Shown here: positions 1,666 to 23,900 of the stretch, piece after piece
Layout: each line of letters starts with the position of its first letter
How positions within the stretch are numbered: the first letter of the stretch is position 1
DNA from: Acytostelium subglobosum LB1
Lineage: Eukaryota; Evosea; Eumycetozoa; Acytosteliales; Acytosteliaceae
Assembly: GCF_000787575.1 (NCBI RefSeq)
Contig: NW_012236515.1
Coordinates: forward strand, 479,892-543,891
Reading direction: 5' to 3'
Length of the DNA: 64,000 nucleotides
Notes under the pieces: model-generated
The model's database searches: none
Seen by the model: the letters and a program-made list of their open reading frames with translations, nothing else
Told to the model about the DNA's origin: nothing
Translations under genes and position numbers: made by a program

Positions 1666-2520
1666 TATAGGTTTAACAAGCGGTGATTGATTAAGTTGAT
1701 GTTGTTGTTTTTGATGTTATTGTTGGTGAAGTTGATGAAGTTGTTGATGTTGCTCTGTAGTCCTCCTGTGTTTATATGATATTACTATTGTACACAACCA
1801 AGTAAGATATTTGGTCTTGGTCTTTTAAAGATATATTAAATTTTTAATATATAAATAATATATTACACAATCAATCAAACAAACAAAGACACTTTGAATG
1901 AATGATTGAAATGAATGAAATGAATGAATGAATGATCAGACGGATGGGATGGATATGGGATTATGTTGTACTGATGTTGACAACACGAATGAATGAATGA
2001 AAGGAGTGAATGAATGGGAATGAATGTAGACACACACACTCTCATACACACACAACAGATGAGAGATATCTTGCCTTCAAGGCAAACAACCAAGCCCGAT
2101 CCTGCCTCTCTCTGTGAAGTGCTTTCCACCTCACACCAACAACCCATTAAAATTTTTATTGCCTCTCTTCAGTAACACACACAACCAACCAACCAAAAGG
2201 ATGGCTGCTTCAAGATGTGGATGGTCTTACATTTTCATTGAACAGCACTACCACCCACTCATCATACTCACTCAATTAATCAATCAATCAATCAATCACA
2301 CCTTCAATATTCCATATTATGGTATGACTTCTTGTTTACACCATTGCTGTGAATGAATATACGCAAAGTGCATACTTGAGGAACTGTTCCAAAGAGAAGA
2401 GATGACATTGTGATGATCATTATGGGTGTGATGATTGAGACCAGAGTCAACCAATCATTCGTTTTAAAACAAAACAGAGTGATAAAGATAAGATATAAAT
2501 GAATGATGATGACGATGACT
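1666..2520. other. divergent intergenic region between myosin I and a FNIP gene
   Basis: No gene is supported here. The stretch holds AT-rich promoter-like sequence next to the myosin start (about 1800-1865), a dense run of TGAA/AATG tetranucleotide repeats (about 1895-2030) and CAATCAAT repeats (about 2275-2300). Short open frames here are low-complexity translations of these repeats. Confidence 0.6.
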
Positions 2521-4158
2521 ATGGACACATTGCCATTGATAGTACTTCAATATATAGTAGATCATTTGATTGATAATCAAATGGACATATGTTGTTATAT
2601 ATTGACTTGTAAACGATTGTATACACTCAGACTCTCAATCATTCGTCCTCAAAACACATGTACCTGCAGTCTCAACTTTGCCAACAACACAAACAATCTC
2701 AACATATTCCATTGTTGTAATCCCAAAGGTATATTTATGTTCATGTTCATGTGTACCCTTGCCCTCGCCCTAACCCTCACTCAATCAGACATTCCACCAG
2801 ACCTTAGACTGGCACCAAACCCCGAGAAATATCCATGGAACACAAGAGTTAGCGATCAAACAGCTGCCATCTTCCATAAATCATTCAAAAGTTCGTTCTC
2901 CAACGTATCATTCCCATCGTATATCAAGTTGATTCACATGAATGATGAATATAATGTACCGATCGAACCACGTGATATACCAAAGTCAATCACTCACATT
3001 GATATTGGTGATGGATACACTCACCCCTTGAAGCCCGACTCCATCCCCAACAGTGTCACATCATTATGGCTTGGAACCAATTACAATCATCAACTTGTCC
3101 CGGGGATCATCCCACCCTCAATGACAACACTCTACCTGGGCGGCAACTACCAAGAACAGATTATACCCGGGGCACTACCATCATAGCTCACCGAGCTTCA
3201 CACGGGTGGATATGACCTTGAGTTCATGCCTGGCGCACTACCATCAACATCATTGACCAAACTATACTTTACCAATTTCAATCAACCAATCACACCTGGT
3301 ACGCTACCATCTTCGATAATCAAGATAAACACTGGAAACATGTTTAATCAATGGTTGGAACCAGGTTCTCTCCCCTCACGTCTGGAGACGCTTATCTTTG
3401 GCGACAACTTTGACTCGCCACTCGATCATGACATCCTCCCATCATCCTTAACAAAGCTTTCATTTGGACATTATTTTGATCAATGGTTGGAGCCAGGCCA
3501 CCTCCCACAATCACTTCGAATACTCAAGCTGGGAGTATTTTTCAATAAGAAGCTCCAAGTTGGATCACTTCCTCCATCACTCCAATCATTGAGGTTGAGT
3601 AATGTCTATAACCAGGAGCTGGAGCCCATGGTGCTGCCACATTCAATCACACACTTGTTCATTGGTTATATTTACCAACAGAGTTTGAACAATGTTGATA
3701 TCATGCCATCATCTCTAACTTCCATATTGTATCAGAATAATTTATTTGATCTTGTTGGACCTGATTCCTTCAAACATTGTCGAATCAACAACATCCAGCA
3801 ACAACGGAATGATCCCAAAAGCAAGCTGATCATTCCAAACAATATTAATATATTTCGTGGACATCTAAGAACATTCAAAATTAATTTATATCAATATCAC
3901 TTTGGTGAAATCGATCAATCAACATCAACATCTACATCTACATCAACATCAACATCAACTTCCAATATCTTTCAACAATTCAAGGAGGCGGAAATATTCC
4001 AGTTGATTTTGGAATCAATAAGAGTAACAATCATAATAAGAAAGATTGATAACGATAACCTACTTTTATTTTTTAATCAATCCAGAATGATATTCGTTAC
4101 ATGGGATATATTACAAAGAAAGAACTATGAATCATTATTTAATATTAATAATAAATAA
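2521..4158 (+). CDS. FNIP-repeat protein with F-box-like N-terminus, interrupted by one in-frame TAG
   Basis: Member of the large dictyostelid FNIP-repeat family; cellular role not established. Exons are 2521..2728 and 2789..4158, with a 60-nt GTATAT...CAG intron at the same place as in the paralogue at 9016. The N-terminus (MDTLPLIVLQYIVDHLI) resembles an F-box helix, followed by a Cys-rich linker and about a dozen FNIP repeats of 20-22 residues with the pattern SLTxLxxGxxFNxPIxPGxLP. The start was chosen by alignment with the two paralogues; an upstream in-frame ATG at 2503 would add six Met/Thr residues. A TAG codon at 3184-3186 replaces the Ser of an otherwise perfect LPSSLT repeat, and the frame continues intact for more than 320 codons. 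This is a recent pseudogene, a read-through stop or a sequence error. Confidence 0.8.
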
Positions 4159-4291
4159 AATAAACATTTTAATTCATGAATTTTCCAAAGTTTGGAAAAT
4201 GGACAATTTTGCCAGTCATGACAAAGAATGACATTTTGATTCACTTTACATTACATTCATACAAATACATACTTAGAATATATATTACCTA

Positions 4292-7193
4292 ATGGAGAAC
4301 ATTGTAAACATTGATAAGGAATCGATGATAGATGAATTCTTGACTCAACTCAACCTGGATCCTGAACAAGCTCAAATAGAAAGTGATCAGAAGCTAAACT
4401 ATCTTCTTTCATTGCCCAATAAGTCAACTTCAAAACTGTTCCTCAATCATAAACAAGAAGTGTTCAAGTATGTCGATGTTATTGAAGTGATATTACTCAA
4501 TCAATCACTAACCTAATCAATCAATCAAACAATCAAATCAGGTTCATCTGCACTATATTGAAACAAGGATGCATAGATGATGAGATATTGGACAACTTGA
4601 CAAAGATGCTTCTCATCGTGTTGATTGATGATCAACAGAATTCTGAAGCAAATAGTCAAGCATTAATCGATTTGTTGTTGGAGAAACAAGGACATGTACT
4701 CAATATCCTGTTCAGAGAGGTTCATTCATTCATCAAACCAATCGACTCTTTACTTCAATTCTTCCATCATCTTAACGCAGACAACATGAACATTGTTATA
4801 TCTCTCTTTGGAACATCATTTCAACAAGTAAGTATTTTCATTCAATCATTCAATCATTCAATCATTCAATCATTCAATCATTCAATCATTCATTCATTCA
4901 TTCATACTTACTCAAACTCATTCATTCATTAGTATTACAAGAGATATGAAGAGTACATACTTAATGAGTTGAGGTCTACCAAGTTCCTCGGACTATCACT
5001 ACTCAATGGTATCATCAAATGCTTTGGAACGAGTGTAAGTGAGCATTCCCTGGAGCAGGTATTCAAACCAATCCTAGATTGTATAAAGGTGATCCATTTC
5101 AAAGCGGACGATGTTACCATTGACACATCACTTGAAGTTGCATGGGGTTTGATCGGAATCGTTGATCTACTCATCAACAGCAAAAACACCATGGAGGATC
5201 TCAAGATAGGTCACCCCGTCGATCTATACATGTCCACTGCATTCATGGTCATGTTGATGTCACCCAAGTCACCATTTGGGAACCATCAAGAAGAGCATAA
5301 GTTCATTGTGCGACATCAAGCATCACTGGCCTTTTTCCTCACTTCGCATTTTAATCGAATATACACCATCTTTCCACAACCATTTCTCAAAGCACTGGCC
5401 CGCCACTCAATGTTGAGCTATAGTAGTATGATCTTAGCATCATTAATTATCATCATCAATCAGATCTTCCTCTCGGTGACTTCCTAAACTCATGTCAACC
5501 AAGCCCTGCTGACTCGTGGATCACTTACATTGACTATAAGATGTCATTGTGCAGTTTTATTCAAATACCCGTTCAACTCTACAATGAGATTGTAAAGGAT
5601 TGTCCTCATGCGGCAGCACGTTTCCACTTGCTCAGGTATCGACACAACAGCAAATTGTTCGCACCTGAAATGAGAACTAAACATTTGTCCAAGAGCATGC
5701 TACTTGATGACACCACCCGACAAGACCCAAGATATTATAGTTATCCTCATCTTTACAAACAATTCAAGATCAACTCATTGGCAAAGAAGTATCGATATTC
5801 ATTGAAGTCTCAAATGGACAAGGACAGTCCAGCACAAGAAGGACACACATCAATCAACTTCACCAACATTCCAGCATTGTTGATAAAGCAAATATTTGGA
5901 TATCTCGTGGAGGTTCAGGCCAATCCGTTGATGTCCATTTGGTTGGTTGAGTTGTCAACAGTGTCCAATCAATTCCATCGAGCAGTATCCAATGCCCTGT
6001 CTAACACAATCAATTCAACAATAACTATCAAGTCCAGGATTGATCATTTGGGCTCCAAGTACTGCTTGTTCCGCACACCGCCACTACATCTCAATGCTGT
6101 TGACCTTATGCACATACCTTCAGAGCATATTCACATGTGTCTCAATCGTTTGGAATCAGTACATATTGAATTCATCGTTGGCAACTCAATCAATTTTGTC
6201 AAGTTTAATGCGCCCAATCTCAGATTCATCAAGTTCAAGGAGTCCAGGATCTTGAATCCAAAATATTCAATGATTAATCAAATGGCCAACAGTGATGGAC
6301 AACAACAAATAATGATCATTGTTGATGAGAAATTGGACTTTAGTATTTATTATTCTGATGATGAATTAGATGATTTTGATGAAGGTCAAGAATATGTTCG
6401 ACGATTCTCATCATACTATCAACAATCATTCAATATTATGTTCCAACATTACAACTTCATAAGTTACAAACACTTAATATCCATTGACATTGAGTCCACC
6501 TCACCTTTTGGTCCTCAATCAGCGGATGAACTTCCCTCTCAAGATCTCTCATCAACAGCAGGCAGCCACTGTATCAACTTCAAATGGGACTTTGACATTG
6601 TACAACAAACAAACTTTATCCAAATGCGGCCTATCTACGATGATGAAGACTTTGATATTTTGTATGATTTGACATCAAACAATCTACAACATCTTAATTC
6701 AATCAACTTTCCATCAGGACAATCAATCCAGCAATTGTCAAAGGCCAATAATTTGCAAGATTTGACACTCAATCTTGATAATCAATGGTTAAGAAATCTT
6801 CCACATTATATCAACTTATTGCATGGATACTACGACAGTGCTGTCCACCACTTGACCTCGCTCACTTGGATACTTCAAGATGTATCATATCTCAAACACG
6901 CAGTCCATTTGTTGCCAAAGGTATCGAACAAAATCAAAACAATCCAGTTTTGTATCAATCTCTATCAAACAATGTTGGTCAATGATGGTGCGGCCACCAT
7001 GGCAAATGATGTCGACGACAATCTGGCATCATTGTTGGATCACCTAAATCAACATCCAACAATATTTACCAATCTCATCAGTTTATCAATAACTGTTAAC
7101 TTAATCATAGGTTCTATTCCACCTCAAACATTCCTCTATCGATCATTCCTTCGATGTTGTCCTCGATGTCCTTTCCAACTTATCGAACAATAA
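4292..7193 (+). CDS. large ARM-like plus F-box-like protein (dictyostelid family, paralogue at 41.9-45.1 kb)
   Basis: Unrecognised function. Four exons, 4292..4467, 4542..4827, 4933..5425 and 5464..7193, give 894 residues. The N-terminal half is all-helical and resembles HEAT/armadillo-type repeats (for example around VVELTS-like Leu-rich helices, residues 1-400). The middle holds an F-box-like segment (NIPALLIKQIFGYLVE) followed by a region rich in beta-strand and leucine that may be a degenerate leucine-rich fold. The gene at 41.9-45.1 kb is a clear paralogue: both have the F-box-like segment, then a shared motif (LNAVDLMHIP here, MNAFDLIHVP there), and both place an intron at the same point after KxxV/LxxK/E. 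The third intron is only 38 nt. A polyadenylation-like AATAAA overlaps the stop codon. It sits 133 bp after one FNIP gene and 201 bp before the next. Confidence 0.8.
4828..4932 (+). repeat. tetranucleotide repeat tract filling an intron
   Basis: The second intron of the ARM/F-box gene is almost entirely imperfect TCAATCAT/ATTC repeats between the GTAAGT donor and the ATTAG acceptor. Similar tracts occur in many introns of this window. Confidence 0.8.
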
Positions 7194-7394
7194 AGAGATT
7201 ATTACTTGTCACCACCGGAGTATCCATACCATAGCACTCTAACTCTTCTGGATATTTGATTAAAAAATCCAGAATATCTGGAAAATTACAAACAAAACAA
7301 CAATCTTGAATATGAGCACATAATCAAATGTCGACAAATCAATCAATGATTAGTCAAAGAGATAAATAACAACAAACAAATATTTTGATAAAGC

Positions 7395-8948
7395 ATGGAC
7401 TCATTACCAGTGATCATACTTCAGAATATAGTGGATGAGTTGATCAACAAACATATAGATGCTTGTTGTTTAGTATTAACTTGTCAGAGGTTATACAAAC
7501 TTCGACTTGCAATCATACGTCCATTAGAGAAGTGTAGATGTAATCCACACAATGTGAACAACATCAACAATCTAAACATATTTCATCGTTGTAAACCATC
7601 ACTGGCACAGAGCGGTCAGTTCAATCCCAACCCCAACCCAACACGCCAACCATGGGACACGAGAACAATCAGTCAATCATGTGCCGAGTTCCAACGATGG
7701 TTTGATCGACCACTCTCGAGTCTGACACTGCCATCACACATCGACAAGATCGTGCTCAATGACGCGTTCAACCTACCAATCGAGCCTGGTGACATCCCCA
7801 ACTCAATCACACAGGTCTCACTTGGCACAGACTTCAACCACCTCTTGAAGCCCGGCTCAATCCCGCCCAGCGTCACAACACTGAGACTTGGAGATGACTA
7901 TGATCATCAACTTGAGCCCGGTACCATTCCGCGCTCACTTACCGAGCTCTACATTGGCGAGAATTATGAACAGCAGATCATACCTGGGGCACTCCCATCA
8001 TCACTAACCATTCTTCACACTGGTGGCTATGATCGTGAGTTCATCACTGGCGCGCTACCACCATCACTCACGTCGTTGACGTTGGGCCTAAAGTTCAATA
8101 AGCCAATCACGCCGAGAGTGTTACCAAGCTCGCTGACAGAGCTCAGCTTTGGGGAGAACTTTGATCAGCTACTCGAGCCCGGGGCTATCCCATCAAGCTT
8201 GACCAGACTAAATTTTGGCGATAGCTTCAACTTGCCGATACAACCTTGCTTGCTGCCCTCGTCACTGACCGACCTAACCTTTGGTCATTACTTCAATCGA
8301 CCATTGTTGCCCAACACTCTACCCCCATCGCTTCGATCACTTGACCTCGGTGTCAACTTTAATCAAAGTCTGGAGGTTGGTGCGTTGCCACCATCACTGG
8401 AATGGCTCAAGTTAAGCTTAGTATTCAATCAACCATTGCAGCCACATGTCCTGCCTCAATCCATCACATACATCTACTTTGGTCGCTACTTCCAACAACC
8501 TATAATGTCTGCGGACATCATGCCAACATCACTATCATCCATTTCCTTTGGAAATGAATTCCTCAATCTTATTGGACACGACACCTTCCGACATTGTCGT
8601 GTTCGTGATCTACTTCAGCGCGATGGCATCAAAACACCACTAGTGCTACCACGCAACTCAATCTTCCATGGACATGCTGCCAACCTTACAATTAGGACAT
8701 TTCATCAATTAAGACTATCATATGAAATGTGGTCACAATATATGATGGACATGGACATCGCATCAATGATACTCTATCAGAATGAGAGTTACCTTGGAAG
8801 TGTTCGAAGGTTGGACAATCAATACCTCTTGGTACAAAGTAGCGCATCAAGATTATACATCATCACATGGAACATCCTACTTCATTATTTCTCAACCTTA
8901 TTCCAACATATACATATTGCTACACTTAGTTCAATGCCAAAGAATTAA
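7395..8948 (+). CDS. FNIP-repeat protein with F-box-like N-terminus (intact, single exon)
   Basis: Intact 517-residue paralogue of the interrupted FNIP gene upstream, and the reference for reading it. The N-terminal 60 residues (MDSLPVIILQNIVDEL, then a Cys-rich linker LVLTCQRLYKLRL) look like an F-box adaptor end. The middle, about residues 100-400, is a ladder of FNIP repeats with FNxPI and PGxLPxSLTxL cores. The last ~120 residues are a family-specific tail ending in a predicted beta-rich segment (YIITWNILL). This member lacks the small intron that its two tandem neighbours have after the Cys-rich linker, which suggests intron loss or an older intronless form. Other FNIP/F-box proteins are thought to work as ubiquitin-ligase adaptors, but this has not been shown for the family here. 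Confidence 0.9.
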   Translation: MDSLPVIILQNIVDELINKHIDACCLVLTCQRLYKLRLAIIRPLEKCRCNPHNVNNINNLNIFHRCKPSLAQSGQFNPNPNPTRQPWDTRTISQSCAEFQRWFDRPLSSLTLPSHIDKIVLNDAFNLPIEPGDIPNSITQVSLGTDFNHLLKPGSIPPSVTTLRLGDDYDHQLEPGTIPRSLTELYIGENYEQQIIPGALPSSLTILHTGGYDREFITGALPPSLTSLTLGLKFNKPITPRVLPSSLTELSFGENFDQLLEPGAIPSSLTRLNFGDSFNLPIQPCLLPSSLTDLTFGHYFNRPLLPNTLPPSLRSLDLGVNFNQSLEVGALPPSLEWLKLSLVFNQPLQPHVLPQSITYIYFGRYFQQPIMSADIMPTSLSSISFGNEFLNLIGHDTFRHCRVRDLLQRDGIKTPLVLPRNSIFHGHAANLTIRTFHQLRLSYEMWSQYMMDMDIASMILYQNESYLGSVRRLDNQYLLVQSSASRLYIITWNILLHYFSTLFQHIHIATLSSMPKN

Positions 8949-8950
8949 TA

Positions 8951-8956
8951 ATAAAA
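8951..8956 (+). terminator. AATAAA polyadenylation signal after FNIP gene
   Basis: Canonical hexamer immediately after the stop of the intronless FNIP gene, within the 67-nt gap before the next FNIP gene, so the 3' end must form very close to the stop codon. Confidence 0.5.
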
Positions 8957-9015
8957 CTAAGGGGCCCCCTTCATTTTATTTCAATCATTCAAACAGATAA
9001 CATAGAGATAACATT

Positions 9016-10615
9016 ATGGACACATTACCAGTGATTGTACTTCAATATATTGTTGATTACTTGATGGAGAATGATAAGATGGATACATGTTGTTTCATCA
9101 TGTCTTCAAAACGATTGTATAACCTTAGAGTCACATTAGTACGACCATCACCTGACACTTGTAGATGTAATCACGACCGTGATATATTCAATCTAAACAA
9201 TCTAAGCATATTCCATACATGTACTACATATGGTATGTTCAACCAATCATTCAATCAATCAATCATTGAACCATTCAATCACTTACTAATATCTTATTTG
9301 ATGAGCAGACATGACAATCTTACCAAACCCTGATGATCATCCTTGGGACACAAGAGTTCACAGTCAATCAAAGGCTACTATGCATAGAGGATTTAACAAA
9401 CCATTGTCAACGGTGTCATTCCCATCCAATATCAGGACATTCATATTCAACGATACTTATAACGTCGCAATCGAACCAGGCGATCTCCCCGACTCCATCA
9501 CCAACATCACCTTTGGCAATGAGTTCAATCAACCTTTAAAGCCAGGATCATTGCCTCGTCATCTAGAATCATTGATCTTTGGTGCCCAATACAGTTGCCA
9601 ACTTGAAGGTTGCTTGCCGTCATCATTGAAGACTCTGTACCTTGGCCAAGATTACAAGAAACAAGTCATGCCGGGTACACTGCCAGCATCGCTCACAACC
9701 TACCTCAACGAAGGCTTCAAACGTGAGATCATACCAGGTTCCCTGCCATCATCTCTGACTCATCTTTGGTTGGCAAACTATAACAAAACGATCGCCCCAG
9801 GCTCGTTCCCCGACTCTTTGACCCATTTGCAATTGGGATATGAATTCAATCAGACTATTGAAGCTGGAGCACTTCCACCTCGCTTGGCAACATTAGAGTT
9901 TGGTCGCATGTTCAACACATCTCTCGCCCCGGGTGTACTCCCGCGGTCCCTCACAAAGATAGAGTATGGCCATAACTTTGATTGCATGTTGAGTCCAAAC
10001 ATGCTGCCAGCAAACCTACAATCTTTGGACCTTGGCTACTATTTCAATCAACCAATGGAGGTTGGTACACTGCCCTCCACCCTCAAATCTCTTCGCCTCA
10101 GTAATATGTTCGATCAGATACTGAAGCCAAAGGTGTTGCCTCAATCAATCACTCATATGGACTTTGGATATTGTTACTCCCAGCCATTGATGTCTGCTGA
10201 CATACTGCCTCGATCACTCACATCGATCACATATAATAACAAGCTGTTGACATTGATCGGCCCAGACACATTCAAGCAGTGTCGTGTCCAACGATTGACA
10301 TTACTACGAATCGAGTTTCAGAACCGAACGATCATACTTCCACGCAATGATCAGTTCAAAGGACACGTCCGCACACTGGTATTGGACAACTATCAACATT
10401 ACATCGATCGAGACGCCAAACTAATGCAACAGTTCAAGGATGCCAACATATCTCGATTGATAATCAAGTGTGGAGGCAGTACTTTGACAGGAATTTTACA
10501 CAAGCTGGACAACATACACTTGTTGGTGATGGACCAGAAGTCAAGAGTGAGCATTATAACCTGGGACAAACTCATTCAACTACGTCACAGTACTTTTATA
10601 AACAGTAATTGGTAA
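9016..10615 (+). CDS. FNIP-repeat protein with F-box-like N-terminus (two exons)
   Basis: Third tandem FNIP gene, 507 residues. Exons are 9016..9232 and 9309..10615, with a 76-nt intron rich in CAATCAAT. Splicing joins CTTY to DMTILPNPDDHPWDTR, matching the PWDTR/PWNTR block in both neighbours. Start MDTLPVIVLQYIVDYL fits the family. About 12 FNIP repeats span residues 110-370, followed by the family tail ending IITWDKLIQLRHSTF. The last ~110 nt of the gene are part of a near-identical direct repeat found again at 13572, so a second copy of its C-terminal ~36 codons exists 3 kb downstream without the rest of the gene. Confidence 0.9.
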
Positions 10616-10836
10616 CATTATACGTCCAGCTTACGTAGACGCAATGTTGCAATACGTCCAGTACGTTTGTACTTGAAGAAGTAGATCAATCCTCCCACTA
10701 TCGCTGCCATCACTACAAATGGTATCACTACGGCAAGAATGATCATCAATCTCTTGTCCTTCTTTTCCACGCCTTGAGCTGAGCATGTAGCTTCATTGGC
10801 ACTCTTGTCATACGACTCAATCAGGACACTCTATAT
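10506..10836. repeat. direct repeat, left copy: FNIP gene tail plus EGF/TIG gene terminal exon
   Basis: About 331 bp matching 13572..13920 at roughly 98% by eye, apart from one indel of about 20 nt. It covers the 3' end of the FNIP gene (+) and a copy of the last exon of the EGF/TIG gene (-). On the minus strand the exon copy keeps an acceptor (ATATAG) and an open frame through the transmembrane segment, ending in RLRKLDV and a stop, where the right copy ends RLRKLATTGKFTL. The FNIP part is the one attached to an intact gene here. Confidence 0.9.
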
Positions 10837-11181
10837 TAGTAGTGGGTAATTGAACTTCAATTTAGCCTTAATGTCTCAATTTGGTGGTCACTACCTTTTT
10901 AAGTAGTGATATCCATATTAGATTATTAGTATAAGAATGGAATGACTCAATCACTCTCTCTGACTTAATCTACCATCATTCATCAGCTCCAATCCAAACA
11001 CAGTTCATTGATACTTTAATATTTCTTTCCAATACTAAAATAATCATCAGACAACATCTTATTATTTTTGTAATAATAATCTAGACAGTTTATATTTATT
11101 ATTACCCAGTCTACGACAGAATAGTCTGAATGACATTTTGAAGGACCCGTCTGTCGTAAAGAACGTATGTGTATCTACAAG

Positions 11182-11505
11182 ATGTCTAGTAATACAATTA
11201 TTAATGAGGATGACCAAGAAGACTCTATCCATATCGACATCGCCTTTGCAGGTCATGATCTCCCAGAGAGTGTCTTGAACCAACAAGCAAGGATCATGGT
11301 ATTGAACGTATTTGCCAACTATGAGTTCTCTACCTTGGAGAACCTTCACCATCATGGGGACGACCTAGCTCCCATTGTCCCTCCAAAATATGGACAAGAT
11401 ACTCTTGTAGGACTAGGGGAGAGGTACCACTACCACTTCTCATCCTCGGAGGGAAAGGACATTGTGGTCAGATTCCTCAGACACCATCATAAGTTGCCAT
11501 TATAA
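11182..11505 (+). CDS. hypothetical small protein (107 aa)
   Basis: Open frame with start MSSNTIINEDDQED inside the block flanked by the direct repeats. Acidic N-terminus, then a compact region ending RFLRHHHKLPL. No known domain recognised. A 97-residue antisense frame overlaps it, and neighbouring sequence is decayed, so it may be a fragment. An in-frame ATG at 11167 would add five residues, but the intervening sequence contains a GTATGT that looks like a splice donor. Confidence 0.3.
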   Translation: MSSNTIINEDDQEDSIHIDIAFAGHDLPESVLNQQARIMVLNVFANYEFSTLENLHHHGDDLAPIVPPKYGQDTLVGLGERYHYHFSSSEGKDIVVRFLRHHHKLPL

Positions 11506-11969
11506 TTTTTAATGTCAATATGTTAATATTTCTTACACATCACCAGAATTTCATGGAGGGAACCCTCTCCACCTACATGACGTGCTGTTCCATTACAAGT
11601 CGAGGCACAGGCTGGGACGCAGTCCGTTTTGCTTGATCACATTCTCTTTCATTGGCGCGCCAATCTCACCATTTCATGCAACCAACCAACCTTGCTAGTA
11701 GGGTATCCATAATAAATGTCCATTGACACAATTCTCATTTATTATCAACACCAACCTACAAATAACCAAACTACTTATATCTCTCTTTCATCTCTCTGGC
11801 CTTCCCCTCCTCACTCACATCACTGTATCAATGCACCTCTTTGAATGGCACTCCAAGATTTACTTTATACAGGTATGTACACCATTGATGATGGATGGAA
11901 TGATTATTGATTGATTGATTGATTGACTAATGGATGTATGTTACATTAGATGGTGAATGGTCAACAATA

Positions 11970-12950
11970 GATTATGGAGGGCAGTGACAAGTTCTCTTTT
12001 TGTACAATCAGAGTTTATATAGAGTGTCAATCGTGGCCAATCCAGACTTTGATGAGAGTACATTTAAGCGTAAAGCAACTTATTCTGCACCAACAACTAC
12101 AAAGAAGTCCAAGCTGGATCAAGAATCTGACCTTCCAGTTTATCAACATGGACAGAAAAGTTATCGCAAGGTATGTTTGATTGATTGATTGTTTGATTGA
12201 TTGATTGGAGTGATCCACTCACTTACCCGATATCTCCAACATCTGAAGAATGCCGAACACTTTAAGGAGTTCTCACATCCATGGTTAAAGCTGTCTGCCA
12301 CAGCTGGCAAGAGTGATGCTGCTCCTGTGCTAAACTTATGGTCACCAAAGACAGCCTATCATAAGAAGAAGCCTAGTTAGACAAAGAATGCTGGAAGGTC
12401 ATTGATACTGCCACTCATATCAACATTGGTACTTCAGTTCAATCCAGAGAAGGCGATCGACATTGCATTCAAGGAGCTCGGCACCTATCTTTCATTCCAA
12501 GCAGGCGAGGACGACATCAGATTGGTTCTGTTTGTGGACAAGGTGACACTGGTCAATGACAAGGTGAACAAAGAGATAGAGGACGATTCGAGATTGAAGG
12601 TCTACGTCCAGGACACCGTCAACTCGCTGGACTACCTGAACGACATTGGTAGTGGTGCGCCATGTAGGTTCATGGCAGTGGAGTCATCGTGGCGACTCAA
12701 GAGGACTGAGAATAACAAGATGCTCTATCAAGCGGCCGGTTTATCATTCGAGAAGGAGACAAAGACTAGACATCCAGACATTATTTGACAGGTGGCATAT
12801 GTCTATCCAGTGCCAATCGTCGATGGTGGAAATGCCGAATTGAAGAAGGATCACGGTGTGGAAGTGGTGTTGCTCGTTGTTGGACCAACATGAACGAGTT
12901 GAAGGCCAATCAATTGGAGGACTACGAAGACTCTATACCATGACATGGAA
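11970..12950 (+). pseudogene. decayed tandem macrodomain gene
   Basis: Pieces in shifting frames read as one former gene. A linker (ANPDFDESTFKRKATY... with TTKKSKLDQESDLPVY) ends at a GTATGTTTG donor near 12173. After an acceptor near 12246 comes HFKEFSHPWLKLSA, then an in-frame TAG near 12378. Next is SLILPLISTLVLQFNPEKA followed by LVLFVDK, which matches the C-terminal half of a macrodomain (family pattern ISTGVFGFP...EKAA, then a hydrophobic strand); here the ligand-loop glycines are replaced by LVLQ. A second macrodomain follows: ESSWRLKRTENNKMLYQAAG, then AYVYPVPIVDGG and VVLLVVGPN-MNELKANQ. A one-base loss falls between GPN and MN. Macrodomains bind or hydrolyse ADP-ribose derivatives. 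The stop, frameshift and damaged loop argue that this copy is dead. HIT or kinase partner domains were not seen. Confidence 0.55.
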
Positions 12951-13117
12951 GTAACAATTGTCACTGTTATTAGCTTGATAAATCAATTTATTAACCTTAA
13001 ACTTCAAATACACCATTAGGATCAATCTCTTCCACCAACTGTTCATCACTATACGCCAAAGATGTGTTTGAGGGTGTGATCGCGAATGATCAACTGGACG
13101 AGTAGAAGCCCAAGGAG

Positions 13118-13260
13118 AGCATTTCATTTACTATGAACTTGGACCCTGGGTCGCTAGTATTATAGTTGCCAAGGGCGACAAGTCGATTGAGTACTCTGAC
13201 TCGTTTGGCAATTCCCCGAGCTCAGACTTTATGGAGAGGATGTTTGAGAGCATCTTGTTA
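13118..13260 (+). pseudogene. short coding-like relic of unknown origin
   Basis: An open stretch reading EHFIYYELGPWVASI, then VAKGDKSIEYSDSFGNSP and DFMERMFE has clear protein character but no start, and stops lie just upstream in the same frame. The hydrophobic strand followed by IEYxDSFG loosely recalls C48/Ulp1-type peptidase cores, but the catalytic His is not evident and the assignment is weak. It could also be a 3' piece of the decayed macrodomain gene. Confidence 0.3.
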
Positions 13261-13571
13261 GTTTTTGTAGTATAAATAGATGTCGTTAATGTTGGTGCTG
13301 GAGTTTAATAAGGTGAGGTCTCATTGTCTGTCTTTACCTTAGGTATCACACTGGGTATTGGTTGCTTGAGCAAAGATGCCTTTTTTTGTTCAAGACCAAT
13401 TGTTGTCGGATGCTGCTTTTGCCATGACCTCCATGACGTCGATCACCTTCTGCTTCTCTCATTCTTCTTTGTCCATCTCTCGTTCCAATCGATGTTTACT
13501 AATTGATTGATAGCCCCACAATGGAGAGAAAGCAACAGTCCACTTTATGTGGAGACACCATATTTACTTGA

Positions 13572-13920
13572 TGGACAACATACACTTGTTGGTGATGGAC
13601 CAGATGTCAAGAGTGAGCATTATAACCTGGGACAAATTCATTCAACTACGTCACAGTACTTTTATAAACAGTAATTGGTAACATTATAATGTAAATTTAC
13701 CAGTTGTTGCCAGCTTACGTAGACGCAATGTTGCAATACGTCCAGTACGTTTGTACTTGAAGAAGTAGATCAATCCTCCCACTATCGCTGCCATCACTAC
13801 AAATGGTATCACTACGGCAAGAATGATCATCAATCTCTTGTCCTTCTTTTCCACGCCTTGAGCTGAGCATGTTGCTTCATGGGTACTCTTGTCATACGAC
13901 TCAATCAGGACACTCTACAT
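13572..13920. repeat. direct repeat, right copy: FNIP tail fragment plus functional EGF/TIG terminal exon
   Basis: Second copy of the 10506..10836 repeat. Here the EGF/TIG exon is joined to its full gene, while the FNIP portion is an orphan of about 36 codons (LDNIHLLVMDQMSRVS and on to a stop). Two base differences from the left copy were seen in the first ~117 nt. The orphan FNIP tail still reads open. Confidence 0.9.
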
Positions 13921-16900
13921 GTGTTTGAGTGTGAGCGAATGATTGAGTTGAATGTTTCCGGGATAGGTCAACTTACAAAGTCTGGATCAATGTCGATGGT
14001 GGAGAAGTATGGAATAACTGTTCCAACTTGAAGTGTTGTGACGTTGGTCCACAACATTCTATTTGATACAATGGTTGGCCGAGAGTCGACAAGTACTGTG
14101 TTGGGGAACCTGGCGTACATCTGAACTCCTGCCAATGGCATGAGAACATAGCGTAGGTCGAGCTCGGATGATCCAGCGAGGGTTGGGTCACGCGAGCCAT
14201 ATTGGCAGCCAGGTTGACCAATACTCTCCATCTGCCATGTGAGCACCAGTGAGTTCAGCTTGGACCTGAATGGATAGTTGGCCATGTGAACGGTGAACTT
14301 AATTGTGTTGGCCGGTAGATTGAACGTCTCGTTGATCCAGATGAAGCTCTCTGGTTCTGTGTTCTTCCTGATGGTCACATTGATCCATCCAATGTTGTTG
14401 TTTGTGCTGTTGTCCAATGATGTGTACTCGTAGGTGTTGTCGGGCAATGCCTTCATGTGCAACAGGTTGCTGAGGGAAGTGTTGCGCACCAGTACTTCAT
14501 CGCTTCCCATCTCTTGCAACATTAGGAATTGGATGTTGAAACTTGACGATTGGTAAACCTTGTCCGAGGTGTTGAGCAGTTGATCAAAGTTGCTAAAGGT
14601 AGCCACAGGTTCGTTGGGCTCGCCCAGGGTCACATTCAACACACTCGTGTTTGAAGGCACAACAAAGTCGCAACCGGGACCATTCCAGCCTGGCTCGCAC
14701 TGACAGATCATTGAGGATGAACACGCGCCATTTCCAGAGCATCTCGTAGTCTCCTGATCACTCGCACACTTAACCAACTTGTTGACCGAGCAGTCGCTAC
14801 CAGTCCAATCACTGCTACACAGACAGATGTTGTTGGTCTGGCACACACCATGATCAGGGCTAGTGCAATCGTTTGGACAGTAGTATAGCGGGATGCTCTG
14901 TTGGTGGACACCTCCATATATCTGAACATAGAGTTTGTAGTCCGGGGTGAATGATGGAGCATCGTCTGTGAGGCTTACTCGTCCTGAAGTGGCCGTAAGC
15001 GAAGTGAATGTGAAAGGATAATCGAAGCGTTGTGATGTGGCAGAGACTGTTGATCCTCCATTGGTGATACCAAACACCTCTATATCCGATACCTTGATGG
15101 AGCTGATGTCCACGCCAGTGAGAATGAAGCTACGATCAGTTGGCTTCATCAAAGGGATTGGGTCGATCACTGGGAAGGTATTGTAGTTGAACTTGTTGGG
15201 TGTGCCCAGGTTGGTCAGTTGGGGTCCAGTCATCCCCGCGACCTCGCCACACACACTGGTCAGACCGTAGACAGAGAAGGTGTTGTCCTGCAGGAATCGA
15301 GCAAACATTCTCGGCACATCCATTATGCATGTCATGTGTGTGGAGTTGATAAAGTTCATTGTACAGTTGTAACCGTCCAAGTATATGGTCTCTTTGAGGT
15401 AGACGACTGGCAGCGAGATGTTGGATAGGGGAGTGTTGGAAGTCACACCCATTGTGAAGACCACTCTGGCGCTGTAACGCGGGTCCAGTATCTTTGGAGT
15501 GAAGCTGAATGATGTGATCTGAGGCCCACCCATAGTGATGAACTTTGAAGGGTCGCCAAGTTGAACTTTGCTGCCAGATGGGAACCTCTCAGAGTCCAAC
15601 GCAGTCCATTGTTGACAATTGTTATACACATCGCATGCCTTGTTGACAAAGTACTTTACACTGGCACTCTTGCAGATGTTCATCTGTGATGATACATTGA
15701 TTGTGAATGTGGTCGATCGTGATCCTATGGCTGGCACTGTTCGGAGGACTTGTGGAATGGGCTGCAATGTATCAAACACAGTCAACTCCACTAATGAGAG
15801 GTCTGAGGAGTCTGCCAGGACAACATTCACTATCGCAATGTTTGTGTTTGTATCAACTGTGGAAGTGACATCAATCAATGATGGAGGTCGGGAGTCCAGG
15901 GGGTTGAGTAGTGTAACCGAGGCAGGATTGTCAAAGTCACCATCATACTGTCTTAGAAGATAATGCAGATCATCATGAGTGTAGCCATTGAGTGTCAGTC
16001 GACAATCTGTTGCCTTGCTATCGTTTGGAATATTGATTGATTGATTACTTCTGTATAACATCATGTTTGACAGAGATTGAGTTTGATCAAGCTGTAATGT
16101 ATGTTGGAATGACCTGGATGAGTTGGAGCATTCAAAGTTGACGATTGGTGGCTGGAGGAGTGGTGTAGGTGTGACCTGGAGCAAGAGTAGACTGACTGTG
16201 ATGTCGGTGTTGTTGATGTAGTCCACAGCGAGATGAAGTGGAACTGCAAGGGAAGGGTCCAGTGGACATGGTACGCTGGGTATGGCCGTGGGTAAAGTGG
16301 TGGCTGGATCATAGAAGTAGCCGCCAGATTGGTACTCTGATGGATTGAGTTGTTTGTCAACACATATCAACGTGACAGGATATCCACAAAACACTTTGTT
16401 GATTACCACTGAGTACGTGAATGAGGCCAACTTGATATCCTCGGCCAACATGTCTTGTGCGTAGAACGTCTTCTTGTAAGGGCCAACTGTGAGATCACAT
16501 CGATGTACTCCAGACACATCAAATAGTGTGAGTTGGACTGTGAGCGTGGAGTTGGATGACACGTCCATGGTGAAGGCGTTGAGTGCGGGTCCAGAGGTGT
16601 CAATGATCGCTGCCAACTGTCCTTGCAAGTCATTTAGGTAGTCATTGGTCTGGCCCAGCTTAATGGTTGACTTGTAGCCTCCTGGTGGATATGGAGGCAA
16701 CATTGTCTCATACTCGATAGTGCCCTGATCAATCCTTCCACTGACCAGCCCAAAGGGGAATGGCAGCCTGGTCGAGAACAAGTTGTTAAGATAGAACTTG
16801 TCAACTCCATGCTCCAACAAAGGATCGGTGAGTCCATCGCGATAAGCTTGTAGCCCAACGTATGATGCATGGACGGTGAGTGTGCTCGGGGTCAAGGGAA

Positions 16901-18514
16901 CGGAGGATGAGACAATGGTGGTGGTCACAGGTCGTTGGTAGTTCGGTGTGGCTGAGCCAGGTAGCAGGTTCATTGTGTAGACGGTCTCGAAGGCATAGCC
17001 GGATCGATCGTAGAAGAAGAATCTGATGTCGCCGCCAATGGCTGAGATGACATTCATTGGCACGGTGACCACCACCTGCCAAGTTGTTTCGTTGGTACAC
17101 AATCTTGCAGCGTTGGTATTGTTGTAGATCCATGTGGAGCCTACTGACACTCTGACGAATGTCAACAAAAGACAATTGGTCACTGGCAAGGTATACTCCA
17201 AGTTCACGGACATTGATCCCAAAGCAGGCAGCTCGACCATTACAGCCGAGGCATAAACACCGACACCTTGGGCTGATGTGCCACTTGGACGATTGGCTTC
17301 AGCTAGATTGGAGTGATTGAGTTAGTGAATGGAATTATTATGGAGCATGGACATTGATCAAAATGATACATACTTGGAACTATACTACGAAGTGAGACAT
17401 ACTTGTTGTTGGCAGAGTCATCATATTTGAGTGTGGCAGTTGCATTGCCATTGTAGCGGAGCACCTTGAACATAGTATAGTAGACTGTGGAGTTGAGATA
17501 AAGTAATGGCTTATCATGTCGATCATTCGGATTGGGTGTGAATGATATCGATGTGTCTGAGTTCACACTCCATCCATTGGGCCATGGTGATTGTTGATTG
17601 GGTCTAACACTCTTGATCACTGTTAGAAACACTGGGGCATCGATGCCCAGTGACTGGCTGCTGAGATACAGTGCATCGGACATCAGTGGAGTAACACTTG
17701 GTATGGACCATTCGGCAACGACACATGAGAACATGGGGATACGCGAGGTCTCGGGGTTCGAAGGGTTGCTGTACAAGTCGTTCAAGGTGAGTGGAATGGA
17801 CTTGGCATCGGGCGACACATCGACATCAATGGCCAGGCGGCCGTAAAAGACACCAGTGGCGTATGTACCCGAGACGTGCTGCATTGTGTTGACCCACCGG
17901 CCCAGGCTGGCCGTGTGCGCGCCGAGTCGGTTGTCTGTAGCCTCCACAAACGCGCTAACATAGCACTGGCTTGTGCTGCTGCCTGTCGAGCCAAGGTACA
18001 CACCGGTCGCGTTGCTGATCAGCCCGCCCTCGAACTGGGCCTTGATGAACTTGGGCTTGAGACGGTCGTGGTAGGTGAAGTTGAACTTGGGACTGCCGGT
18101 GGTGAGACTGAGGCCGGCGACCGAGTCATCGGGCGTGCCATCACCATACTTGATCGTGAGTGTACTGGGTGTGTAGGTGAAAGGTTCGCCCTCGGATGTG
18201 AGCGCGCCATTGTCCGAGGTGATGGGCACGGTGAGGTAGTTGGATGCCAACAAGTTGGTCGTGCAGTTGTTGGTAGGGGTACCTCTGTTGCACACCAAGG
18301 TCAAGTCGTAGGAGTCTGCTGCGGCAAAGGTATATACATACTCGCTCACAGTTGACAATGGAGCCACAGCCCATGCGTCAATATAACGTGGCGAGTATGT
18401 TAGATTGAGTGTTTGTCCTGGGTTGGACACGAGACAAACAAAGGTAGTTGGTTCATCGGCGGCCAACACTGTGCCACCAAACAACAGAAGTAGTAGTAGT
18501 AGCGTAGATATCAT
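13684..18514 (-). CDS. large EGF-like/TIG-type single-pass membrane protein (ComC/Tgr-like), 1565 aa
   Basis: Probable surface adhesion or signalling protein. Exons are 17374..18514, 13977..17302 and 13684..13914, with introns of 71 and 62 nt (GTATGT and GTAAGT donors). The signal peptide is MISTLLLLLLLFGGTVLA. A long extracellular region of beta-sandwich-like repeats follows, with many N-glycosylation sequons. Near residues 1170-1250 are two EGF-like modules (CPNDCTSPDHGVC..CLCSSDWTGSDC and CSGNGACSSSMICQCEPGW). The last exon encodes the transmembrane helix (around LMIILAVVIPFVVMAAIVGG) and a short basic tail ending KLATTGKFTL. The architecture matches dictyostelid ComC and relatives, with Ig/TIG-like folds as in Tgr proteins; orthology is not claimed. 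The paralogue at 20986-26059 shares all three exon junctions. A copy of its last exon lies 3 kb downstream. Confidence 0.88.
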
Positions 18515-20985: not shown

Positions 20986-23900
20986 CTAATACTTTCCAAG
21001 ACTTGTCATTTTCTTGAGATGGAACACTGCCAGACGTCCTGATGAGCGGTACTTGAAGTAATAGATGGCACCTGCTACAATGGCACATACAACTATAACA
21101 ACCGGCACGACAATGGCAACAATGAGAACCCACCTCCTATCCGATGTACTACTTGCGGCGCACACAGGTTCCTTGCGACCCTCATTAAGATTTACAAGTA
21201 CACTCTATAATGTGATTGTGTTAATACTTGGAAGTGATTGAATGATGTGATGTAAGGCAACTTACAAAGTCTGGATCAATATCAAGTTGTGTGAAGTAGG
21301 GTATCTCTACACCTATCTCAACTGTGGTAGTGTTGGATGAGATCTTCTTGTTGGATACTAGGGCTGGACGACCATCGACCATGACTGTGTTGGGGAATCG
21401 TCCAAACAGACTGAGTTGGTGAAGTGGAAGGACGACGTATCTGATGTCACTCTCAGTTCCAGAGAGGAATGGCAGGTCGCTGTTGTACTTGCATCCAGCC
21501 TCGCCACTGGCCTCCATCAACCATGTCAGCTGGAGACTGTTGAGCTTGGACTTGAATGGGTATCCTTTGAACGACACACCATACTTGACGGTGTTGGGTG
21601 CCAGTGTGACAGTCTCGTTGATCCATTGGAATGAGTCGGCGGACAAGTAACGCTTGAGTGTGACCTTGATGGTGCCAACTGCTCCTGATTGCTTGGGTGC
21701 TGTGTATTCATACACATTGTCCTCCTTCCTCTCGATGTCCATCTGATCAAAGAAGTGTTCGATTACCACATCGTTGTTGATGTTGATCTCGCGCAGTGAC
21801 AGGAACTGGACCTTGAAGCTGGATGACTTGTATACCTTGACTGTTGTCGTTGTGCCATTGTCGTTGCTTTCGCTGTTGACCAACTCATCAAAGTTGTCAA
21901 AGGTCACTGTTGGCTGGTTGGTATCGCCCATGTGCACGCCCAGTGGGCTTGGCTTGTCAGCCGTGGGCAGTGGGGCTGCGACCTCGCAACCCGGTCCATT
22001 CCAGCCTGGGCCACACTGGCACAACATGGACACTGAGCAGGAACCTTTGTTCGAGCACAGGTTGTCCGGACTGTTGCTTGGACACTTGACCAACTTGCTG
22101 ATGGAGCAGTCGATGCCAGTCCATTCGGTGCCACACACACATGTGCCATTCTTCAGACACAGGCCATTCTTTGCGGATGTGCAGTCATTCGGACAGAAGT
22201 AGACTGGGACATTCTGTTGTTGCTGTGCCTGGCCCTTGATCTCCACAAAGACTGGGTAGTCAACGGTGAGCATCTGAGTAAGGTTGATCAATGCCAATGT
22301 AGCGTTGAGTGGATTGTACTTGAATGGATATGGTACCTGAGTGCCATTGATGAGCATTGGTGCTTCGATGTTGTGGCGGCGACCTGAGCTGGCGCGGGAG
22401 TTGGAGCCGGGGATGGGGACGCCAGGTGGCACAACGTAGTAGACAGAGATGTTCAACTCGGTGAGCGTGTCCAGGTTGGAGCCAGTCAAGATGAAACTGT
22501 TGTCAGAGTACTTGACGATGGGCACGGGGTTGATCGAGACATTCTTGGCAGGCGATGGTGTGCCTGTTGGTGTGGCGGTCGTAGTGGTGGGACTTGGCGA
22601 CAGTGTAATAACCGGCGTGCCATCATCATAGATGATCCTGTCAGGGAAGCTGCGAGCGGCGAGCATTGGGGCAGTCCATCCGCGCACATCACCACATACG
22701 CTGGCCAAGCCATTCACAGAGATGGTGCTGGCATTGAGGAAACGGCCAAAGTTGGGTGGTATCATGATGTTGCAAGTCATAGATGTATCGTTGACAAAGT
22801 CCATTGTGCATTGGAGTCCATCCAAGTACAGTGTCTCGTAGACAGACACCACTGGACGAGCAATCTTTGACAGGGGGATGACTCCATCGCTGGCCACGTT
22901 CATCGTGAACACCACATCGGCGCCGACGCGTGGATCGACCACACGTGGCGCAAAGTCAAACGAGGTGATTGAGGGTCCACTGCCCGTGGGAGTGTATGTT
23001 GTCGAGCTCTGTACCTTCCTCTCCTCTTGTAGCTCCGAGTCAATGATGGACCACTCTTGGCAATTGTTAAACACATCACATGCCTTGCTAACAAAGAAGC
23101 GACGGTTGTATGCGCCGCACAGGGTGTTTTGCTCAGTCACGTCGATCTGGAAGACGACGTCGTGTGAGTCGGCCAGGGGTGACAGGGACTCGACCCATGA
23201 CACGGGCTGCATCGTGTCAAAGTGAGTGATCTCGACGTAGGCCAGGTCAGAGACGTCTGTCACTGTGGCCGTGACTGTGGTCACCATGCCCGATGTTGTG
23301 GCGGTCACTGACTCGACGACAGGCGGCTTTGAGTCGCCCATGTTGGCAACGTGGATCACTGCCGGATTAGGGTAGTTGCCATTATTGCGACCGAGCAGGA
23401 AGTTGAGCTCTTCGTGTGGGTAGTCGAACGATCCCTCACTGATGTCCATGTACAACGACAGCCTGCAAGTCGTGGACTTGAGGGTAAGTATGTCCTTGTG
23501 TTGCGTGCGGAAGAGCTTGAATTCAAGCTCGGTAGTGTCCTTAACCATGTCCAAAGTGCCCGATAGGTCGGGGTCATCGCAATCCAGATTGAGCTTGGGA
23601 TCAAAGGGCACCGCGCTAGGCTTGAGCTGGGTGAACCAGAGCGAGATGTAGAATGTGTTGAGTGGCGCATTGTTGTTGTTGTCGTCGTAGTCGTAGTTGA
23701 GATGGAGATGCACGGGCACGGGTGTGGACTCATCGAATGGGAACTGGCATCGAACAAAGGGTACTTGGACTGGTGCCTTGGTGGCCGCATTGTAGTAGAC
23801 GTCACCCGATGAGTATGATGATGGGTTGAGCAACTTGTCGACACAATGCAATGTGGCGGCGTAGCCACAGAATGGCTGGTTCATGATGAAGATGTGTGAG

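Follow-up and report, generated by a model that had tools for sequence, protein, structure and literature searches.

A FNIP/EGF gene junction present twice around a putative Polinton-type relic with a nested apl fragment in Acytostelium subglobosum

Vaughn and Bennetzen in 2014 and Schiml in 2016 are said to have described tandem duplications arising from the repair of adjacent nicks. In rice, tandem duplications have been put down to this route; they account for 70% of events when short and for 5% by 200 bases, the longest measuring 4.9 kb (PMC7971508). In C. elegans helq-1 mutants, they span about 100 bases to 10 kb, and patchworks attributed to polymerase-theta end-joining carry filler DNA at the repair joints (PMC8654963). 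The locus described here shares with the rice events a direct local duplication for which break repair, not a transposase, is the tentative cause, and with the polymerase-theta and helq-1 products the presence of filler DNA and a duplication within the size range. It differs from the former by its length of about 330 bases, by the 2.7 kb of other DNA lying between the copies, and by an ancestral state that only an outgroup would orient. It differs from the latter in that its pieces seem to be of different ages, the patchwork being probably not the product of one event. The consulted parts of both reports describe no foreign DNA between the copies (PMC7971508, PMC8654963).

Two other described systems bear on the DNA between the copies. 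A polymerase-tree legend covering Polintons, Polinton-like viruses, virophages, and their relatives lists Acytostelium subglobosum and other dictyostelids (PMC4642659). The parent family of the block appears to be of this Polinton/Maverick kind, with a C48 protease, a retroviral-type integrase, and a type-B polymerase match, but in the window copy, a fragment, most genes have been deleted and no ends can be seen. In Dictyostelium, apl (DDB_G0293866) is reported to act in the DNA-damage response and to combine FHA, PBZ, and macrodomain modules (PMC5087659). Its A. subglobosum counterpart likewise combines an FHA-type domain, a PBZ-like motif, and a C-terminal macrodomain, whereas the window holds a broken internal fragment alone. 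The A. subglobosum genome is reported to comprise 30.9 Mb at 55% A+T, with large FNIP and TIG/EGF families, the FNIP-type genes numbering 381 (PMC4334915). Among the literature titles listed, none is about the present locus, which does not in itself show an absence of reports.

The window, the whole stretch of 64,000 nucleotides analysed here, has a GC content of 44%. Its comparison with itself (E<=1e-10) returns three repeat pairs, the strongest of which joins 10506-10833 (left copy) to 13572-13917 (right copy) in direct orientation. The other two, at 74% and 79% identity, connect FNIP gene regions and have one end each within FNIP reading frames. BLASTN aligns the two copies in a single match with 323 of 346 columns identical. 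The base-by-base alignment called for by the original prediction yields six substitutions over 328 aligned bases, of which one falls in the gap region and five lie elsewhere, together with a net gap of 18 bases; the divergence is thus 1.5-1.8% (5-6/328). A search of the whole genome (30.7 Mb in 56 contigs) returns these two places and no third copy. The near-identical junction repeat of ~0.33 kb predicted at both ends of the block is therefore real, although the right-hand ends originally given, 10836 and 13920, lie 3 bases too far. In both copies, the FNIP stop codon (10613-10615 in the left copy) and that of the EGF gene on the opposite strand are separated by 2 bases, within 10613-10620 and 13679-13686. 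The repeat is hence nearly all coding for one gene or the other, with the last 3 bases of an EGF intron in addition, and a 3' untranslated region of either gene would overlap the coding sequence of its neighbour.

The FNIP-repeat gene (9016..10615, plus strand) has a start codon at 9016 and a first intron read by eye, and matches Pfam FNIP in eight stretches (E 1.2e-77 for 9305-10615). It runs continuously through the left copy, which holds its last codons and stop; the FNIP tail of the right copy differs by two amino acids and is unused. The gene of an EGF-domain surface protein (13684..18514, minus strand) is defined by its reading frames, its intron, and matches to Pfam DUF7034 and EGF_Teneurin above cut-off and to ComC_SSD slightly below. 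It reads through the right copy without a break; its stop lies at 13684-13686, its last exon extends to 13914, and its last intron occupies 13915-13976. This intron is 62 bases long vs 61 in the neighbouring paralogue, and its position also matches. The C-terminus encoded by the right copy, LRKLATTGKFTL, resembles by eye the KKMTSLGKY of that paralogue (tail at 20986-21204); the EGF tail of the left copy does not have it, being altered by the 18-base difference. Reading frames and EGF intron thus bear out the original view that the intact FNIP gene uses the left copy and the intact EGF gene the right one. From this division of use, it is likely that the two genes ancestrally met directly, tail to tail, at one junction, as had been proposed; this is the simplest origin. 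The duplicate EGF last exon in the left copy (10618-10833), apparently unused, retains an open frame and a plausible acceptor, so that its use as an alternative last exon is conceivable.

The DNA between the copies begins with a stretch (10834..11182) matching nothing in the assembly other than itself. It is followed by a small gene or gene relic (11183..11660, plus strand; frame after 11505 compared by eye) of a family found at four other places. Its closest relative, at 40-42% identity, lies at C46:938.7k, directly beside a Polinton copy (locus L026). The small gene at L026:620-1138 (C46:938.6k) thus adjoins a Polinton copy, as its window relative adjoins Polinton relics. Around each of the other three family members, a locus of 10 kb shows no element gene. 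Judged by position, this gene may be cargo of one Polinton element lineage. As a normal neighbour of FNIP genes it is a weak candidate: one of the four other members (on contig C55) follows a FNIP gene, a result resting on a query with the FNIP main exon, in a genome with many FNIP genes, so the link between the two families is weak.

Much of the rest of the block is best read as a shrunken, nearly collinear relic of a Polinton-type element. Searching the whole genome with the block gives, among the best candidates scored, 51 matches including itself, of which 27 are short and fall on a simple repeat at about positions 1330-1380 of the block; the informative ones form two sets, one on the apl fragment described below and one on the element. 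Eight element loci of 10 kb were compared with the block (E<=1e-3), with 300 dinucleotide shuffles for each piece. Piece A (11708..11854, minus strand), the relic of the 3' end of a C48 protease gene, is recovered at 8/8 loci. Piece B (12939..13047, minus strand) continues A after a loss of 24 bases and is recovered at five of them. Piece C (13048..13242, plus strand) is recovered at seven and is inverted with respect to A, B, and seven other matching copies. None of the 300 shuffles scores as well as any of these three pieces. Beyond them, decayed sequence upstream of the protease core (13243..13502, minus strand) is collinear with other element copies: the part at 13439-13502 matches 3/8 loci (0/300 shuffles), and that at 13243-13442 is weak, with three loci and one shuffle that ties. 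A last piece of 53 bases (13518..13570, plus strand; compared as part of 13503-13571) belongs to a capsid-candidate gene, PLYVETPYLLDG against VPYVEPRYLLAG in the element; it scores 44.6 bits with 0/300 shuffles as good, but matches just one of the eight loci. It ends where the right repeat begins. In element coordinates, C alone departs from the collinear order, by an inversion in place. On the right, the block breaks off within an element gene rather than at the end of an element. Rfam returns no match at gathering scores over 9000-15000.

The family itself has copies on at least seven contigs, with varying gene content (loci L023-L030; C21, C39, C25, C46, C47, C45, and C53), and two of the copies are about 1.5 kb or less away from the end of a contig. 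Its assignment as Polinton-type follows from three proteins. The protease, adenain/Ulp1-type, matches Peptidase_C48 with 41.6 bits (cut-off 20.7) in L023, and it is to this same gene that pieces A, B, and C of the window correspond. A retroviral-type integrase at L046:1561-2346 scores 31.8 bits for rve, slightly below the cut-off of 32.6, and matches the PFV integrase in the PDB (E 1.4e-7). Relatives of it at 78-88% occur at three more places (C25, C46, and C55), and all four lie within a few kb of an element copy. The type-B polymerase profile DNA_pol_B_2 reaches 26.5 bits in L028 (cut-off 25.8). Genome-wide, this polymerase gives five matches, three of them above cut-off, two of which are in analysed copies at C47:502k and C25:118.8k; of three ORFs scanned singly, the two in L023 and L027 give none. 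A packaging ATPase ORF is a putative assignment, from weak matches below cut-off and from its position and size. The capsid candidate owes its name to position and size, with no supporting match in Pfam, PHROGs, or PDB, and PHROGs gives none for five element ORFs. Beside one Polinton copy on C21, a chromodomain integrase of retrotransposon type (L046:3088-4377) is also seen, distinct from the retroviral-type integrase there.

These relatives change the picture of an insert free of any mobile element: that part of the original prediction is not supported, the block being largely a relic of a family that elsewhere carries a retroviral-type integrase. No integrase is present in the window relic. 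The predicted lack of terminal inverted repeats holds as far as the first and last 80 bases of the block go (251/500 shuffles as good), and is expected of a truncated copy. With no inverted match beyond chance at its ends and a right end inside an element gene, the block is not a transposon with terminal inverted repeats.

Nested in the relic is a fragment of the host gene apl (11855..12942, plus strand). This 1.09 kb piece covers the PBZ and macrodomain part of the gene, contains introns, and is interrupted by in-frame stops and indels, in line with the broken macrodomain gene first noticed here. The stretch 11855-12944 matches two contig ends, C45:1-431 (90%) and C16:1-930 (93%), which overlap each other by 259 identical bases inside the apl gene (loci L005 and L004) and together make up an apparently intact gene. 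This parent scores 25.1 bits for FHA_2 (cut-off 23.1) and 19.4 bits for the PBZ-like motif, below the cut-off of 22.7, and its C-terminal part matches PDB 5lw6 (DDB_G0293866; E 5.4e-34). C16 and the reversed C45 are probably neighbours on a single chromosome, and the assembler may have stopped at the parent because of the fragment in the window. At C41:238216-238340, 125 bases match the apl part of the block with 72% identity; this is perhaps a second, distant macrodomain gene.

The apl fragment sits inside the element protease gene, where it replaces 24 element bases between A and B (in L024 and L025 coordinates), a small target deletion without target-site duplication; on the right, it shares a few ambiguous bases with piece B. 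Since introns are kept, the donor is known, and 24 element bases are replaced, no retro step is called for, and the retained intron sequence rules out retro-insertion for this part. A capture at the DNA level from a distant host locus, of break-repair type, is supported. The idea of ectopic DNA capture therefore stands for the apl piece, but this capture was into the relic and not into the junction, and it appears older than the junction duplication. The genome-wide search for the source of the 2.7 kb block, proposed at the outset, finds among the best candidates scored a donor at 90-93% for the apl part and none for the whole.

The apl fragment differs from its parent at 58 of 1074 aligned bases (5.4%), significantly more than the repeats differ from each other (Fisher p 0.001-0.003). 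With exons alone (32/827), the comparison is borderline (p 0.026-0.053). Each of the two comparisons pairs one constrained with one unconstrained copy, which makes them comparable as clocks. The higher divergence of the apl fragment indicates that the composite relic is probably older than the duplication of the junction, provided that the repeats have not been reset by gene conversion. The test of an insert and a duplication of the same age, made in one event, comes out against it, and a one-event patchwork is disfavoured on the same ground.

The explanation we favour, held tentatively and somewhat short of an even chance, is that break repair sealed a pre-existing composite between two copies of the junction. 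The FNIP and EGF genes would originally have stood tail to tail at a single junction. Apart from this, a Polinton-type element would have decayed, losing internal stretches by deletion and undergoing one small inversion, and 1.09 kb of apl would have patched a break in its protease gene. A later break at the FNIP/EGF junction would then have been repaired in such a way that ~330-346 bases of the junction were made twice, either by filling in of staggered ends or by a polymerase stepping back onto its template. The 2.7 kb composite piece, cut inside the capsid-candidate gene, would have been sealed between the two copies. The repeats, the Polinton pieces, the nested apl fragment with its loss of 24 element bases, and the higher divergence of that fragment are observed; we infer the order of these events, the single repair event at the junction, and the pathway.

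Several observations fit this scheme. The insert is flanked by direct copies of the target. Only one copy is read through by each gene, and the last EGF intron is near the length of that of its paralogue. That the block stops inside an element gene on the right and has no inverted ends fits the capture of a broken piece and not the transposition of an intact element. The higher divergence of the apl fragment, the lack of a long high-identity second copy of the rest of either gene, and the reported tandem duplications from break repair also speak for it. Against it, 330 bases is long for nick-type repair, the reports cited above describe no foreign DNA between the copies in the parts consulted, the divergence test on exons alone is borderline, the genome search finds no donor for the whole composite, which a repair copy would be expected to leave, and the model does not explain why the right edge of the repeat lies 3 bases inside an intron. 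An RNA step, which this edge at an intron boundary had suggested, was dropped, since no upstream exon follows the edge. The final step originally proposed, a repair-mediated insertion that duplicated the junction, is a possible one.

Duplication followed by deletion is an unlikely but serious competitor. A larger segmental duplication would have put a second FNIP-tail/EGF copy beside the old relic and been trimmed later, the deletion ends setting the length of the repeat. This accounts for a relic that looks older than the repeats and for a right edge inside an element gene, and it does not need a staggered break of 330 bases. It requires at least two unseen steps, however, and a remnant of the extra FNIP/EGF copy, outside the repeat, is found neither in the window nor in the genome. 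In these searches, which skipped simple repeats, no long high-identity second copy of the remaining EGF or FNIP sequence is returned; the rest of both genes matches neighbouring family members at 66-70%, and otherwise in stretches of ~35-70 bases at 79-94%.

Gene conversion is an improbable, though not far-fetched, alternative: insertion and duplication would be as old as the relic, and the repeat copies would have been kept alike by conversion over 2.7 kb. Direct repeats 3 kb apart are good substrates for gene conversion. Moreover, the five substitutions outside the gap region all avoid the central 218 bases (chance 0.025, tested post hoc), but the 18-base difference lies inside this substitution-free stretch, which leaves the spacing test ambiguous. 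The right edge of the relic within a gene remains to be explained under this scenario as well.

The favoured break repair can also be put in a stricter form, which is distinctly unlikely: one event would have sealed the whole composite 2.7 kb fragment, with no surviving donor in the assembly, into the junction, duplicating 330-346 bases and leaving both genes whole. The fragment would then possibly be DNA from another strain. A misjoin at the repeat of two haplotypes or of unrelated contigs is very improbable: the assembly does break at the apl parent, where C45:1 and C16:1 share their 259 identical bases unjoined, but the repeat copies differ at 5-6 sites and by the 18-base gap, the window contains no N, and both genes read on across the repeat. 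Ordinary Polinton integration with the repeats as target-site duplication is barely credible, even for a largely Polinton-derived block from a family with an integrase, as Polinton target duplications are a few bases and not 330, and the block ends inside the capsid-candidate gene with no inverted repeat at its ends.

The locus is a well-preserved example of known processes, a fairly ordinary rearrangement scar and not a new system. Its interest lies in layers whose order can be roughly told: the virus-like element is old, a captured part of a DNA-repair gene lies within it, and the duplication of the junction is younger. Recombination between the two repeats would delete the block while leaving both genes in place, so the locus predicts a testable polymorphism. 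On the left, several FNIP genes lie close together at 2520-10615. Parts of them are 66-79% identical in DNA, which points to an earlier expansion of these genes in place.
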